Assembly (NCBI GenBank): GCA_030590525.1
Contig: JAUUYI010000007.1
Location: 1 to 17,821, forward strand
DNA length: 17,821 bases
Source: Sedimenticola sp.
GTDB lineage: Bacteria; Pseudomonadota; Gammaproteobacteria; Chromatiales; Chromatiaceae
Reading direction: 5' to 3'
Position numbers and translations under genes: made by a program. The notes below the pieces were generated by a model. That model did not search any database. It had not been told where the DNA came from and saw only the letters and a program-made list of their open reading frames with translations. Positions 8,223 through 17,821 of the stretch are shown here, piece by piece. Each line of letters starts with the position of its first letter. Within the stretch, counting starts at the first letter, position 1.

Positions 8223-8233
8223 CCTTAAAGACA

Positions 8234-8336
8234 AGGACCAAGGACCGAGGACCAAGGACCGAGGAAAAGACAACAGATAGAACACAGAACCATTCTAAAT
8301 CCGGGCCCTTGGTCCTGTTTTTAATCCTTGGTCCTC
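8234..8336. repeat. AGGACC(A/G) heptamer array with complementary arm (element A)
   Basis: Four exact 7-bp units, AGGACCA/AGGACCG alternating, at 8234-8261 plus AGG at 8262-8264, face a complementary arm at 8307-8336 containing two TTGGTCCT copies. The 12-mer GAGGACCAAGGA at 8247-8258 is a perfect inverted repeat of TCCTTGGTCCTC at 8325-8336, so the whole gap can fold into a long stem. It fills the space between yciO and the M50 gene and overlaps the last base pairs of the yciO stop codon. Same family as the arrays at 16931-17035 and 17181-17210. Confidence 0.85.
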
Positions 8337-8952
8337 AGAAAACCGAGACATCACCCTTGCCGATCCGCAGCACCGCCGGCACCTCCTGTTCCATGTCGAT
8401 CACTGTGGTGGGCTCATACCCACAGTAGCCGCCATCGATCACCAGATCCGCCTCGTGGTCCAGGGTCTCCAGGATATCGTAGGGGTCCATCATCGGCATC
8501 TCGTCTTCAGGCAGGATCAGAGTGGAACTCATCAGCGGCTCCCCCAGCTCTTCCAGCAGGGCCTGCACGATGCGATTGTCTGGTATCCGGATACCGATGG
8601 TCTTGCGTTTCGGATGCTGTAACCGGCGCGGCACCTGCTTGGTAGCCTTGAGAATGAAAGTATAGGGTCCCGGCGTCAGATTCTTGAGCATCCGATAATG
8701 TTGATTCCCGACCTTTGCATAGGTGGAAATTTCGGAGAGATCCCGGCACACGAGCGTAAAATTATGCTTGTCGTCCAACCGACGAATACGCCGGATTCGC
8801 TCCATTGCCCCTTTGTCGCCAATCTGGCACCCCAGGGCATAGCTGGAATCTGTCGGATAGGCCACCAGACCGCCTTGCCGTAAGACATCCACTACCTGCG
8901 AGATCAGGCGCAGCTGGGGATTTTCTGGGTGAATCTTAAACAACCGGGCCAT
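8335..8952 (-). CDS. yciO: YciO, TsaC/Sua5/YrdC-family protein
   Basis: Member of the YrdC/Sua5/YciO superfamily, whose TsaC/Sua5 members make threonylcarbamoyl-AMP for tRNA t6A37. The 205-residue product closely follows E. coli YciO (206 aa): FKIHPENPQLRLISQ, AYPTDSSYALGCQIGDKGAM, RIRRLDDKHNFTLVCRDLSE, LTPGPYTFILKATKQVPRRL, KRKTIGIRIPDN, LGEPLMSSTLILP and a C-terminal PTTVIDM. YciO-type proteins carry the same fold, but their in vivo role is less certain than TsaC, so t6A synthesis should not be assumed. Start ATG at 8952 with a weak GAG-type site. It lies downstream of the PHP gene with a 92-bp gap; the yciV(rnm)-yciO pairing is also found in E. coli. Confidence 0.94.
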   Translation of the reverse strand: MARLFKIHPENPQLRLISQVVDVLRQGGLVAYPTDSSYALGCQIGDKGAMERIRRIRRLDDKHNFTLVCRDLSEISTYAKVGNQHYRMLKNLTPGPYTFILKATKQVPRRLQHPKRKTIGIRIPDNRIVQALLEELGEPLMSSTLILPEDEMPMMDPYDILETLDHEADLVIDGGYCGYEPTTVIDMEQEVPAVLRIGKGDVSVF

Positions 8953-14377: not shown

Positions 14378-14515
14378 CTCCAGGATGAAAGTTACCCACT
14401 CGAATAGGGGAAGAGCCAAAAATAAAATCGGTGTGAAATATAACGGACTACCGCGCGGTCTTTATAGGCGAGTGTAGAAAAAATGTTCTCAACTTTATAT
14501 ACAGGAAGATATACG

Positions 14516-14809
14516 ATGAAAAAAACAGCCCTTGCCCTTATCCTTGGTGTCTTCTCTTTTGGTGCTGCCGTAGCCGCTCAAAACAACCAGCAGCAGGAAG
14601 ACGATCTGATGTATGGCTATCGCCCTGTGGAGGCCGCCAAATCTGAGGCAGCCACGCCGAGTGCGGTTCGCAACAATCAGCAGCAGGAAGACGACCTGAT
14701 GTATGGCTATCGCACGACCAAGGCATCCCATTCAGAACCCGCCGACCCCAGTGCCATACGCAACAACCGGCAGCAGGAAGATGACCTGATGTATGGTTAC
14801 AGAAAGTAG
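14516..14809 (+). CDS. Small secreted protein with three QQEDDLMYGYR repeats, unknown function
   Basis: Predicted 97-residue precursor; I do not recognise the family. A clear Sec signal peptide (MKKTALALILGVFSFGAAVA, cleavage after residue 20 or 21) leaves a mature protein of about 76 residues. This consists of three blocks NN(Q/R)QQEDDLMYGYR at 22-36, 52-66 and 82-96, spaced exactly 30 residues apart by less conserved Ala/Ser/Pro/Glu linkers. No cysteines, very hydrophilic and acidic, two Tyr per block. The three DNA copies differ at many third positions but encode almost the same peptide. The start at 14516 is chosen because AGGAAG (14503-14508) is 7 nt upstream and the signal peptide begins there; an in-frame ATG at 14483 lacks both. 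It follows the diguanylate cyclase by 138 bp and is convergent with the AOR operon. A matrix, adhesive or regulated surface peptide is possible but unsupported. Confidence 0.8.
   Translation: MKKTALALILGVFSFGAAVAAQNNQQQEDDLMYGYRPVEAAKSEAATPSAVRNNQQQEDDLMYGYRTTKASHSEPADPSAIRNNRQQEDDLMYGYRK
14579..14803 (+). repeat. Three 90-bp tandem coding units in the secreted protein gene
   Basis: Conserved 45-bp cores at 14579-14623, 14669-14713 and 14759-14803, period 90 bp. Core differences are nearly all synonymous (AAC/AAT, GAC/GAT, GGC/GGT, TAT/TAC, CGC/AGA), with a single Gln-to-Arg change besides the first residue. This indicates selection on the peptide rather than recent duplication. Confidence 0.85.
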
Positions 14810-14875: not shown

Positions 14876-15196
14876 TCACCCGCCGCCTCGCTGGAAATGT
14901 AGATCCAGGTTATCCATGAAATGCGCCCGTTCCAACTTGTCCAACCCTGAGAAGATAAACTTTACATGGGTAACGGGCAGCAACAGGGCTCCGATGCGGC
15001 GCCCGGCAGATGGTGTGAGGTGTATCACTATCTTCCCCTCCGGGTGGTCGATAGTAATCGTATTATCCTCCACCCGATAATCCAGCCCCTCGACCGACAG
15101 GGGTAAGGCGCGGAAGAACTCCCCGGGGGTCAAACCCATTTCACGCACGAGACTCTCAGACAATGCCAGTACTCCAACAAGGTTATCACTACCCAC
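14876..15196 (-). CDS. Uncharacterised 106-residue protein coupled to the MoaD-like gene
   Basis: I do not recognise the family. The chosen start is GTG at 15196, overlapping the MoaD-like stop by 8 nt, which implies translational coupling; the frame itself is open upstream to 15316 inside the MoaD-like gene. The product begins GSDNLVGVLALSESL and continues GLTPGEFFRALPL. It then appears as a beta-rich middle (DYRVEDNTITIDHPEGKIVI, GALLLPVTHVKFIFSG) and an amphipathic end LERAHFMDNLDLHFQRGGG. It has no signal peptide, membrane segment, cysteine or metal motif. Position in the operon suggests a role with the AOR enzyme or its tungsten cofactor, but that is inference. The Gly-Gly-Gly C-terminus is notable beside a carrier that itself ends in Gly-Gly. 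Confidence 0.75.
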   Translation of the reverse strand: MGSDNLVGVLALSESLVREMGLTPGEFFRALPLSVEGLDYRVEDNTITIDHPEGKIVIHLTPSAGRRIGALLLPVTHVKFIFSGLDKLERAHFMDNLDLHFQRGGG

Positions 15197-15437
15197 CCGC
15201 CACGGCCGGCCAGACGGCCAGTTCATCGCCCTCTTCCAGGGCATTATCCCGCTCACCCGGTGGCACAAAAACCCCGTTGCGCAAAACCAGATGAATCCGG
15301 GCGATGGGTACGCCATGTCGCTCCAGCAACTGGATCGGCGTGGTTCCTTCCGGTACCTGAAGTACTATCTGATACCCTTCAGAGCCAGCAGGCAGATACT
15401 CGGTCAAAGAGGCATAGAGCTTGAAGGTCAGTTTCAT
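15189..15437 (-). CDS. MoaD/ThiS-family sulfur carrier protein
   Basis: An 82-residue ubiquitin-like beta-grasp protein: MKLTFKLYASLTEYLP at the start, VPEGTTPIQLLERHGVP, HLVLRNGVFVPPGERDNALE, EGDELAVWPAVAGG at the end. The C-terminal Gly-Gly is the site of thiocarboxylation in MoaD (molybdopterin dithiolene sulfur) and ThiS. Next to an AOR gene, it most likely serves pterin cofactor assembly for the tungsten enzyme, as MoaD-like genes do in other aor operons; this is inference. The open frame extends to 15494, but the domain begins at the ATG at 15437, which sits directly against a 212-bp inverted-repeat element. No good Shine-Dalgarno is present, only GCGAG in the element's arm, so its upstream expression signals may have been replaced. 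Confidence 0.9.
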   Translation of the reverse strand: MKLTFKLYASLTEYLPAGSEGYQIVLQVPEGTTPIQLLERHGVPIARIHLVLRNGVFVPPGERDNALEEGDELAVWPAVAGG

Positions 15438-15649
15438 AGGGCTCGCAAAACAATAAGTTCCTGATTTTGGGGCGTCGAGGCGCCCGTCTGGCAAGGCGCG
15501 GAAACGCAGGAATATGTGCTATCTTTCAAGTTTTCGCAACGTGACCCACAGGGATGTGGGAAATGCCGGTTCCGTCAGGAACATGAACCGGCCCGCCAGA
15601 CGGGATGGATCGGCGTTCCAAAACAGGAAGTTATTGTTTCGCGAGCCCT
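15438..15649. mobile_element. 212-bp MITE-like element with 55-nt inverted arms, flanked by TA
   Basis: Left arm 15438-15492 and right arm 15595-15649 are both 55 nt and inverted copies of each other, matching over most of their length. The ends AGGGCTCGC / GCGAGCCCT, then AAACAATAA / TTATTGTTT, TTCCTG / CAGGAA, and CCCGTCTGGC / GCCAGACGGG pair perfectly. The 102-nt centre has two more hairpins: CCCACA-GGGA-TGTGGG (15545-15560) and GCCGGTTC / GAACCGGC (15565-15572, 15585-15592). If the ends are taken as GGGCTC...GAGCCC, TA lies on each side (15437-15438, 15649-15650), the duplication made by IS630/mariner-type transposases. The right arm overlaps the 3' end of the FAD oxidoreductase gene and the left arm touches the MoaD-like ATG. 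No coding capacity. Confidence 0.75.
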
Positions 15650-16908
15650 AGAGCACTGTTCAGCTGTGTACTGCCCAGATAGGCCTCCATGATCCTGGTC
15701 GGATCATCGAGCAAGCGCTGTTTCCAGAGCCCGAGACGGACCTTGCTCTGAATCAGACCACGAAGGACACCGACCCGTTCCGTCATCCCCAGAGTAATGG
15801 CCCCTACCAGATGGTCGTCCTGAAACTGCAGATTAATGTAGCGAAATCCCTCCTGGTCCAGCAGGCTGGCGGAGGATCCGTCCTCCACACCCATCCACAG
15901 ACCATAGGAGGTTGAAACCAGCCCCAGGGTGTCCAGTACGTTCATGCCCAGCCCCCCCTTGTATGGAGTTTCCGTCCCACTCATGTTGAGCGCGGCGACC
16001 CTCCCGGTCTCCACCGCCGCCGGCTGGATCGCATTCACCGCCCGCTCGCCGGTACTCCAGTCGAATCCCTCACACAGGTCACCCGCCGCATAGACGCCCG
16101 CTACCGAGGTCTGCAGCTGCGCATCCACCAGCACCCCGGTTGAGGTCTCGATCCCGCTGCCTTCCAGATACTCGATCGCCGGGACGACACCGGTTGCCAC
16201 GACGATCAGATCCGCCTGCAGTGGATCTGCTGCTCCCTCGCACTGCAGCAGAAATTTCGTTCCCTCTGCTGAATCTTTCTCCACCGAGAGCACCCGGGTC
16301 GAGGTACGGACATCGATCCCCTTCCCGATACACCACTGCTTGATCAGATTACCGGCCACCTGATCCATCATCCGCGGGACCATCCGGTCACCCATCTCCA
16401 CCACGGTGAGCTCAACACCTCGTCTGACCAGGGACTCCATGATGATACAACCGATGAAGCCTGCTCCCATCAGCACCACCCGGGCCCCTGCCACGGCGTG
16501 CTCGGCTATATTTCTGGCATCTTCCAGCGTCCAGCAGTGATGAATACCCGTCTGATCCAGCCCTTCGATGGGGGGAGAAACCGCCCTGGATCCACTGGCC
16601 AGCAGCAGACGGTCATACTCCACCGCTCCACTCTGTTCCAGAATCACTCGGTTGCTGCCCGTATCGACCCGCTTTACCCGTTCATGCAGCCGGCGGATGT
16701 CGAGCCCCTGAAAGTGGTTTGGGTCATGGCGAAGATAGGTCCCGGACTCCTCGATCCGCCCCGCCAGCAGATAGGGTATGGCCATACGGGAATAGGCCGG
16801 TTCCGGCTCATCCCCGATCAAAAAGATCTCCCCTCCAGAGTCCTGGCCACGCAGGGTCTCAGCCGCAACAACGCCCGCCGGCCCGGCCCCGATAATGACA
16901 TAACGCAT
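15631..16908 (-). CDS. FAD/NAD(P)-dependent pyridine nucleotide-disulfide-type oxidoreductase of the AOR cluster
   Basis: Flavoprotein of 425 residues: FAD-binding GAGPAG (7-12), substrate-pocket region PAYSRMAIPYLLAG (38-50), LLLASGSRA (101-109), NAD-binding GAGFIG (148-153), VVATGVVPAIEYLEGSG (236-251) and the second FAD motif VYAAGDLCEG (271-280). It resembles nitrite reductase NirB-type and rubredoxin/ferredoxin reductase-type NADH oxidoreductases and lacks the redox CxxxxC of glutathione reductases. In aor operons such as that of Aromatoleum, an FAD subunit couples AOR to NAD, which is the likely role here (inference). The start has AAGGA 7 nt upstream. The C-terminal residues LGLAKQ and the TAA are written in the arm of the inverted-repeat element, so the natural end may have been changed by insertion. 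Confidence 0.88.
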   Translation of the reverse strand: MRYVIIGAGPAGVVAAETLRGQDSGGEIFLIGDEPEPAYSRMAIPYLLAGRIEESGTYLRHDPNHFQGLDIRRLHERVKRVDTGSNRVILEQSGAVEYDRLLLASGSRAVSPPIEGLDQTGIHHCWTLEDARNIAEHAVAGARVVLMGAGFIGCIIMESLVRRGVELTVVEMGDRMVPRMMDQVAGNLIKQWCIGKGIDVRTSTRVLSVEKDSAEGTKFLLQCEGAADPLQADLIVVATGVVPAIEYLEGSGIETSTGVLVDAQLQTSVAGVYAAGDLCEGFDWSTGERAVNAIQPAAVETGRVAALNMSGTETPYKGGLGMNVLDTLGLVSTSYGLWMGVEDGSSASLLDQEGFRYINLQFQDDHLVGAITLGMTERVGVLRGLIQSKVRLGLWKQRLLDDPTRIMEAYLGSTQLNSALGLAKQ

Positions 16909-16930
16909 ACGATAATCCTTTTTTAAAAGC

Positions 16931-17035
16931 AGGACCTAGGACAAAAGCAGGACCGAGGACCGAGGAAAAACAGGACCGAGGAAAAGAAAAACCTTAAAGA
17001 TTAAACCCTTTAAACTTGGTCCTTGGTCCTTGGTC
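16931..17035. repeat. AGGACC heptamer array with complementary arm (element B)
   Basis: Left arm 16931-16982 holds AGGACCTAGGAC, CAGGACCGAGGACCGAGGA and CAGGACCGAGGA, separated by A-rich tracts. Right arm 17015-17035 is three CTTGGTC heptamers in tandem, complementary to the left arm. Same architecture and similar length to element A at 8234-8336, and likewise just upstream of a minus-strand gene start (about 22 bp before the FAD oxidoreductase ATG). Confidence 0.8.
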
Positions 17036-17070
17036 TCTAGTACAGCGCCGCATAAGTAGCGATGAAGAAT

Positions 17071-17145
17071 ATGTTGGGTTACGGCGCGCTCATAATCTGG
17101 TGATCACTTGAAATATCAGCGAGATGCGCGCCTAACCCAACCTAC
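17071..17145. repeat. REP-like palindromic module between the AOR and FAD genes
   Basis: TTGGGTTACGGCGCGC (17074-17089) is the inverted repeat of GCGCGCCTAACCCAA (17126-17140), one bulged base, spacer 36 nt. A second small hairpin GCGCGG-TT-CCGCGC follows at 17165-17178. The wider module 17041-17177 has CTAG on both sides (17037-17040 and 17178-17181) and lies between two pieces of the heptamer repeat. GTTGGGTTA...TAACCCAAC palindromes are widespread in Proteobacteria. Confidence 0.7.
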
Positions 17146-17180
17146 ATTATATTCACGGGCACTTGCGCGGTTCCGCGCTA

Positions 17181-17210
17181 GTCCTTGGTCCTGTTTTATC
17201 CTTGGTCCTG
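17181..17210. repeat. TTGGTCCT repeat after the AOR gene (element C)
   Basis: Two TCCTTGGTCCT copies separated by GTTTTA, 3 bp beyond the AOR stop in gene direction. It is nearly identical in order and spacing to the right arm of element A, which sits in the same place relative to the yciO stop. Together with element B it looks like one heptamer element split by the REP-like module. Confidence 0.75.
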
Positions 17211-17213
17211 AAC

Positions 17214-17821
17214 TTAAAGCCCAAGTCGCTGCAGGGTCTCTGGGCTCGGCACACCGCTTTCGTCCCAGCCGCGCAGCTGGTAGTACTCAGGCAGCATCTT
17301 GTCCAGACCACAGACCTTACCCTTGGCGGGACCCGTCTTGGCCGCCTCCTTAAGCAGTCGCTGAGGCAGGGTGTCGTCCTTACCGGTAAAGCCGGCTGCC
17401 AGATTGAACTGACGCTCCATATTCCAGATCCGTTCACCGATCTCAACCAGTCGATTCAGGTCCCAGTCACCTTCGCAGGCGGCATCCAGCTGTGGATGGA
17501 AATCATCCAGAGACCAGGCGAAGGTGGAGAAGAGGCAGAGACCGGAGGAGTCGACCGCGGCAGTGGCATCCTGAAACGCCTTCACCAGCCCGGCCTTTCC
17601 CTCTGTCACCAGGGGATCCGTCTTTTCCGGGATGCCCAGAATTTCGGAGGAGACGGTGTAGCTGCGCAAATGGCAGGCGCCCCGGTTACTGGTGGCGTAG
17701 GTCAATCCCATCCCCTGGATACCGCGTGGGTCGTAGGCCGGGAACTCCTGGCCCTTGACGCTCATGGAGAGCTCCGGGTGGCCATACTTCTCACACATCC
17801 GCTTCGAACCAAGACCCAGGA
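17214..17821 (-). CDS. aor: Aldehyde:ferredoxin oxidoreductase family protein, C-terminal part (5' end outside window)
   Basis: Tungsten/molybdenum bis-pterin enzyme family oxidising aldehydes to carboxylates. The minus-strand frame is open to the right edge and codes for the last ~202 residues (family members are about 600-700). Family marks: SVKGQEFPAYDPRGIQGMGL, TYATSNRGACHLRSY, and DSSGLCLFSTFAW, whose Cys (residue ~95 of the fragment) corresponds to the fourth 4Fe-4S ligand of Pyrococcus AOR (Cys494). The end IWNMERQFNLAAGFTGKDD, TLPQRLLKEAAKTGPAKG is also typical. The ATG at 17798 is internal, not a start. The metal (W or Mo) and substrate cannot be told from the fragment. Operon partners downstream are the FAD oxidoreductase, a MoaD-like carrier and an unknown 106-residue protein; the 304-bp gap to the next gene is filled with repeats. 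Confidence 0.93.
   Translation of the reverse strand, partial: LGLGSKRMCEKYGHPELSMSVKGQEFPAYDPRGIQGMGLTYATSNRGACHLRSYTVSSEILGIPEKTDPLVTEGKAGLVKAFQDATAAVDSSGLCLFSTFAWSLDDFHPQLDAACEGDWDLNRLVEIGERIWNMERQFNLAAGFTGKDDTLPQRLLKEAAKTGPAKGKVCGLDKMLPEYYQLRGWDESGVPSPETLQRLGL

Follow-up and report, generated by a model that had tools for sequence, protein, structure and literature searches.

A mobile palindromic element probably inserted into a stop/start overlap between an FAD-dependent oxidoreductase gene and a MoaD-like gene of Sedimenticola sp.

The window analysed here is the whole stretch of 17,821 nucleotides from contig JAUUYI010000007.1 of Sedimenticola sp. (assembly GCA_030590525.1). Three co-oriented genes lie near its end, encoding the C-terminal part of an aldehyde ferredoxin oxidoreductase (AOR), an FAD-dependent oxidoreductase (FAD) and a MoaD/ThiS-like protein (MoaD), and the FAD–MoaD junction holds a palindromic element (Table 1). 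Upstream of its annotated ATG the MoaD frame stays open as far as a TTG at 15494, which lies within the element, and a start other than the annotated one, for example at this TTG, is possible. Compared with the closest relative, Sedimenticola sp. CSMAG_2797 (locus L093), the FAD gene gave pN 0.065 and pS 0.456 (dN/dS about 0.10) and MoaD gave pN 0.081 and pS 0.431 (dN/dS about 0.13); judged by these ratios, MoaD is still under constraint despite the insertion. Another nested palindrome, 305 nt long and unrelated to the element (-124.3 kcal/mol, z -8.6), occupies the AOR–FAD junction (16909-17213, minus strand), with AGGACC-type repeats on the outside and a GTAGGTTGGGTTAGGCGCGC / GCGCGCCGTAACCCAACAT pair inside; AGGACCAAGGACC-type repeats, as in this palindrome, recur with inverted copies at 8228-8340. 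At 14573-14799 a 90-nt tandem unit, its third copy partial, lies within a plus-strand ORF (14483-14809) and codes for a repeated stretch.

Table 1. Genes of the operon and parts of the element at the FAD–MoaD junction (window positions).
Feature	Position	Strand	Remarks
MoaD/ThiS-like gene, 82 aa	15189..15437	-	ThiS, Ub-Mut7C; start codon at hairpin foot
Target duplication TA, MoaD side	15437..15438	.	A of TA is the A of the MoaD ATG
MITE, 210 nt	15439..15648	- (operon/mRNA strand)	Ends from terminal repeats common to other copies; empty junction in L093
MoaD-side arm	15439..15492	.	Outer part nearly perfectly complementary to FAD-side arm
Inner module m1, two hairpins	15542..15591	+	Almost invariant across family copies; 46-nt core 15545-15590
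FAD-side arm	15595..15648	.	From inverted-pair and folding analysis
Terminal repeat GGG CTC GCG AAA CAA TAA	15631..15648	-	GLAKQ and stop codon for the FAD gene
Target duplication TA, FAD side	15649..15650	.	Final two bases of the CTA Leu codon
FAD-dependent oxidoreductase gene, 425 aa	15631..16908	-	Pyr_redox_2, weak Rubredoxin_C
Aldehyde ferredoxin oxidoreductase gene, C-terminal part	17214..17819	-	Cut by window end; AFOR_C in 17214-17798

A preliminary description of this region had proposed inverted arms at the junction, and these were borne out: the outer 31 nt (15437-15467 against 15620-15650) are 90% complementary and rank first of the 72 inverted pairs in the window. The two further hairpins that it placed in the centre were also present on folding. 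It had the arms bounded by TA, which holds for both sides, but the TA is the duplicated target and the element proper comprises only the 210 nt between. Folded on the operon strand, the element RNA reached -109.9 kcal/mol (z = -10.8), a value equalled by 0 of 200 shuffles. The element contains no transposase gene (0 ORFs of at least 60 aa lie wholly inside it). Rfam covariance models gave 0 matches at gathering in the window and 0 at E up to 1 in 15400-15700, and 0 sigma-70-like promoter matches were found in 15150-15950, where other promoters may exist.

The suggestion that the element is MITE-like held up. The genome to which the window belongs (G000; 2.34 Mb, 389 contigs, 70% complete) contains 72 pieces that match a 214-nt stretch spanning it, so it is not single-copy; the pattern RGGGCTCGCGAAAYAATAA at up to 3 mismatches occurred there at 76 sites, against 0 for the reversed control pattern. 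Matching pieces numbered 34 in a congener (G001) and 27 in a member of another genus of the same family (G006). Terminal inverted repeats, a target duplication, short length without a transposase, many dispersed copies and an empty site in a relative place the element in the MITE class. The ends of the family are GGGCTCGCGNAANAATAA with TWA duplications, as read from 56 complete copies with ends no more than 2 substitutions away from the pattern, the FAD loci L080-L144 being left out. An identical triplet stood on both sides in 40 of the 56 (TAA in 21, TTA in 19); both flanks were readable in 54 copies, two having no readable left flank, and in 14 of the 54 the triplets differed. The window copy belongs to these 14, with TA on both sides and not the TWA triplet of the family. 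C preceded the triplet in 26 of the 40 and G followed it in 24, so the target resembles CTWAG. By heuristic ORF calls, nine of the 56 (L012, L032, L036, L037, L195, L211, L220, L221 and L224) sit directly against the stop codon of a neighbouring ORF, with no gap between, and in these nine the duplicated triplet can serve as that stop codon. The idea of a 'soft landing' in all frames was rejected: stops came sooner than at control TWA sites (median 8 vs 21 codons), but the slowest frame was hardly better (64 vs 79).

The family is patchy in Gammaproteobacteria. Counting the window's own genome each time, a matching piece of any kind was found in 6 of 55 genomes (in some a short piece of an end only); within the order, 16 of the 210 genomes searched had terminal repeats at up to 1 mismatch, and 5 of 369 genomes of a class-wide sample had sites. 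Two genomes of genus g4, one of them G125, had 127 and 132 sites; of the seven others in this genus, one had 2 and six had 0. A gammaproteobacterium of another family (G493) had 187 terminal-repeat sites, and the copies read there include two with the core of this family and others with another interior, giving at least two different interiors. Beyond the class, plasmid NZ_CP087953.1 of Desulfosarcina sp. BuS5, which belongs to another phylum, carries a complete 157-nt copy with TAA on both sides (L257:2920-3076), a probable case of transfer between phyla to judge from the sequence. The S. hydrogenitrophicus-type core used as query found no plasmid, the viral_contigs set gave 0 exact terminal-repeat matches and no relative when scanned with MoaD, and the phages gave no match. 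In the portions of the open-licence PMC literature at hand, no report was recognised as this MITE family and none paired Sedimenticola with a MITE.

A partner transposase was sought in two families. PF01609 had 73 matches in 5 of 7 genomes, with 0 in G000 and G001, and 3, 1 and 5 matches in G125, G126 and G493 respectively; PF13340 was present in 1 of 10 genomes. Terminal repeats were scanned for in 30 of the 73 first PF01609 loci and in all loci of G125/G126, G493 and PF13340. None of the loci scanned had MITE terminal repeats on both sides, in draft assemblies that break at repeats; single weak end matches lay in L164, L203-L205 and L252, and two 4-mismatch matches in L226.

The copies are built from modules. 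Lengths among the 56 were 155-160 nt in 34 (159 in 25), 208-211 in seven and 258-265 in eight, and the remaining copies measured 80, 283, 316, 367, 376, 416 and 539 nt, one each. Steps of about 52 nt had been added in 18 of the 21 longer copies, and in G000 the longer forms extend the 159-nt core by hairpin modules, each some 52 nt long. The S. hydrogenitrophicus-type copies have a different core sequence, yet are again 159 and 210-211 nt long. Helical phasing of the 52-nt steps was considered and discarded, as lengths of 80, 341, 376 and 539 do not fit. Among 24 cores selected from several genera, pairing holds in 97.3% of cells, and double-sided changes occur in 12 of 44 stem pairs (shuffles 6.3, sd 1.2; 0 of 500 as high), the stem structure being derived from the same alignment and the shuffles ignoring relatedness; further pair types were less striking (30 vs 27.1; 11 of 500 shuffles). 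When the partners were slid, pairing fell to 33-45% and double-changed pairs to 0-6. Eleven cores of the other type gave a covariation term of about zero (0.52). We regard the apparent compensatory changes as support for pairing rather than proof of it.

Module m1 is far more uniform than its surroundings. In G000, 16 of its 19 occurrences have the 46-nt core without any change, as do 5 of the 6 in G001; none was found in G006 or G057. Over a hand-picked 18 of the 25 occurrences, with tandem and contig-end-cut copies mostly left out, m1 departed from consensus at 7 of 900 positions and the adjoining 45 nt at 88 of 810 (gaps counted), a divergence some 14-fold lower for m1 than for the surrounding MITE core (15542-15591 and 24 other places in G000 and G001); the arms of 13 complete copies departed at 78 of 676. 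Twenty-two of the 25 follow the same CAACG-like MITE-core junction, two follow another m1 in tandem and one is cut. Spread of a young cassette from copy to copy, gene conversion and selection would each be sufficient to explain this uniformity. At one orthologous site in two species (L220:3233-3515 and L207:2953-3293) the same ends enclose different interiors of 283 and 341 nt, as if the interior had been exchanged. The 1179 hairpins in loci L001-L257, loci chosen for the MITE, have CAGGGATG as their commonest loop core (31, with 13 stems); the loop cores CATCCATG and CAAGGATG account for 8 and 5, with many different stems. We take the loop CANGGATG, whose core is CAGGGATG, to resemble the CsrA consensus; a CsrA role was rejected, as CANGGATG occurs on opposite strands in modules of one element and it is the TCC strand that is transcribed in the operon of the window. 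A 3.2-kb span bounded by two terminal repeats on contig C74, considered as a composite, was also set aside: it holds two partial copies showing the same arm.

Relatives' loci were compared for the state of the junction before the insertion. There were 52, of which 51 were examined (L141, cut inside the gene, was left out). A MoaD-like gene lay within 1.5 kb of the FAD gene in 48 of the 51, with a gap of at most 60 nt in 32 of these 48 and an overlap in five. A terminal-repeat scan found no complete element in the FAD–MoaD junction of any of the 51; of three loci with matches, two had them elsewhere or chance-like, and the third, L102, has within this junction a truncated element end that is absent from its sister L097. 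In L094, L097, L099, L102, L115 and L119 the junction is filled by other palindromic repeats, which by eye look unrelated. In the closest relative, whose FAD protein is 88% identical, the junction is without the element, as it is in L080; the FAD protein ends ..STQLNGQ-TGA and MoaD starts within that stop, in an ATGA overlap (CCAATGAAACTTACC). The window junction reads ..GCTCTA[210 nt]TATGAAACTG. Joined with a single TA its flanks give CTATGAAACTG, in which the FAD protein would end ..STQLNSAL-TGA with the same 4-nt overlap, in frame. Because this joining restores an overlap like that of L093, the element would have inserted into the stop/start overlap, and from the restored frame we infer a single ancestral TA. 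The preliminary description had proposed looking for a single TA in an element-free relative; the site is indeed empty there, but the relative reads CCAATGA and has not kept the TA itself. To judge from these sequences, the insertion most likely postdates the divergence from the closest relative with a sequence, and loss of an older element from L093 would be a less simple alternative. Two more sites were filled in one species and empty in the other (L224 vs L194 and L182 vs L221), neither base-clean, and at one further compared site both species have the copy.

The element changed the coding ends on both of its sides. The FAD C-terminus differs from that of the element-free relative, as had been anticipated, in that GLAKQ and a stop codon were added. 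The preliminary description had credited the element with LGLAKQ and the TAA; GLAKQ and the TAA do come from it, but the preceding Leu codon CTA is made up of a flanking C and the TA. Nor does the other arm end at the base before the MoaD ATG, as had been stated, since the A of that ATG (15437) is supplied again by the duplicated TA. A clear Shine-Dalgarno sequence is absent before MoaD, as had been noted, but not through the element: predicted strengths were -2.2 kcal/mol here, -1.7 for the joined empty site and -1.7 for L093, against -5.4 for the FAD gene. Since a Shine-Dalgarno sequence is missing from the joined empty site and from L093 alike, none was lost through the insertion, and on this comparison what was lost is the 4-nt stop/start overlap.

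By folding predictions, a long RNA hairpin probably buries the start of MoaD. Within the stem, opening the start region (-18 to +15) was predicted to cost 34.2 kcal/mol. It fell to a predicted 12.9 kcal/mol with a ribosome at the FAD stop, the footprint (-14 to +15 kept unpaired) being assumed, as is the folding model. With no ribosome the joined empty site was predicted to need 9.7 and L093 4.7 kcal/mol. For transcripts that start 20-150 nt upstream of the ATG, as cleavage in or close to the 3' arm would leave them, the prediction was 4.5-7.4 kcal/mol. If these values hold, MoaD would be uncoupled from FAD, with translation then depending on duplex cutting or on ribosomes that end in the 5' arm. 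A processing or stability role for the hairpin, judged by analogy and from the predicted fold, is plausible.

We propose that a palindrome that has no transposase of its own and is mobilised in trans entered a TA inside the ATGA overlap of the FAD stop and the MoaD start, and we give this explanation, including the consequences that follow, a probability of roughly three in four. Through the duplicated TA the MoaD gene would have regained its start codon, and the FAD gene would have acquired from the terminal repeat a new stop five codons downstream. In the mRNA the arms would pair and hide the MoaD start, and the old stop/start coupling would thereby be broken. MoaD may then be translated mainly once the stem is open, whether through an RNase III-type cut in the duplex or through a ribosome that terminates at the FAD stop. 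This stop now sits within the 5' arm, where such a ribosome could open the stem. The insertion was probably a tolerated accident rather than an evolved switch.

One alternative is that the insertion is neutral for expression, with MoaD made from another start or transcript, or redundant, and the hairpin without consequence. The open frame back to the TTG would allow this, and gaps of at least 100 nt before MoaD in other relatives suggest that close spacing is dispensable; against it stand the predicted opening cost of 34.2 kcal/mol and the 32 of 48 relatives that keep MoaD close to the FAD stop, and we think neutrality unlikely. Another possibility is that the hairpin has been recruited as a processing or stability switch of the operon and is kept by selection. 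Hairpins do recur in the relatives (5 of the 14 long FAD–MoaD gaps that were scored, and 11 of the 15 scored AOR–FAD gaps, reach a z of -3 or lower), although this may only reflect repeats collecting between genes; the compensatory stem changes would suit such a switch, but they are family-wide and may serve transposition. As the insertion is also absent from the closest relative, we doubt this strongly. That the hairpin is an intrinsic terminator or attenuator, a role raised in the preliminary description, can be given very little credence: it is very stable and lies between co-oriented genes, but 0 terminator-like sites were found in 15150-15950 (shuffles 0.6) and the sequence is dispersed at many unrelated places.

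A bolder reading, which we put forward as distinctly improbable, is that the stop/start overlap was replaced by coupling through the hairpin, with the FAD stop in one arm and the MoaD start at the foot of the other, and that m1 spreads as a cassette, making this a mobile element with mobile or gene-converted parts. If the former were true, a ribosome finishing FAD would free the MoaD start about 200 nt away, lowering the cost from 34 to 13 kcal/mol; if the latter were, a nearly invariant two-hairpin cassette would have spread among diverged carriers at one fixed site. On the explanation that we prefer, in which a mobile insertion broke the coupling, the window and its closest relative give a clean comparison of the states after and before a mobile hairpin disrupted a stop/start overlap, with both genes left intact. 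This comparison makes the cost of lost translational coupling, and the effect of a long stem on a downstream start, testable with short constructs. With its steps of about 52 nt, its low-divergence cassette and its copies both in Gammaproteobacteria and on a plasmid of Desulfosarcina, the family could serve as a case in which to study how MITEs grow and cross phyla.

The analysis adds a stop/start overlap that was split while its start codon was rebuilt, and a modular family that is new but belongs to a known kind of element. Among known systems, a mobiliser like that of IS5-family MITEs (IS427/IS1031-type ends) would fit the GGG start and the short T-N-A duplication, but no transposase with matching ends was found here. 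The Correia elements of Neisseria have a TA target and a terminal-repeat consensus that differs from the ends of this family; the present family, unlike them, duplicates mostly TWA and has modules. In one account, Correia elements are, like the present one, palindromic repeats transcribed within operons, and RNase III cuts their transcripts at the terminal repeats (PMC10969869). The same account describes the ERIC sequences of enterobacteria as palindromic repeats at gene 3' ends that can alter transcript stability (PMC10969869); in this they are alike, but 15400-15700 gave no match to any Rfam family at E up to 1. The BOX elements of Streptococcus pneumoniae are similarly small mobile repeats with terminal repeats and target duplication, and similarly modular, with a variable number of inner units that fold on their own (PMC3049150). 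They differ in sequence and host; for the boxA, boxB and boxC modules the comparison covered the layout. In that account, 36 pneumococcal coding sequences are reported to take their stop from a BOX element, so that a stop codon supplied by an element is a known kind of effect (PMC3049150); unlike in BOX, the duplication here has also rebuilt the start codon of the next gene.
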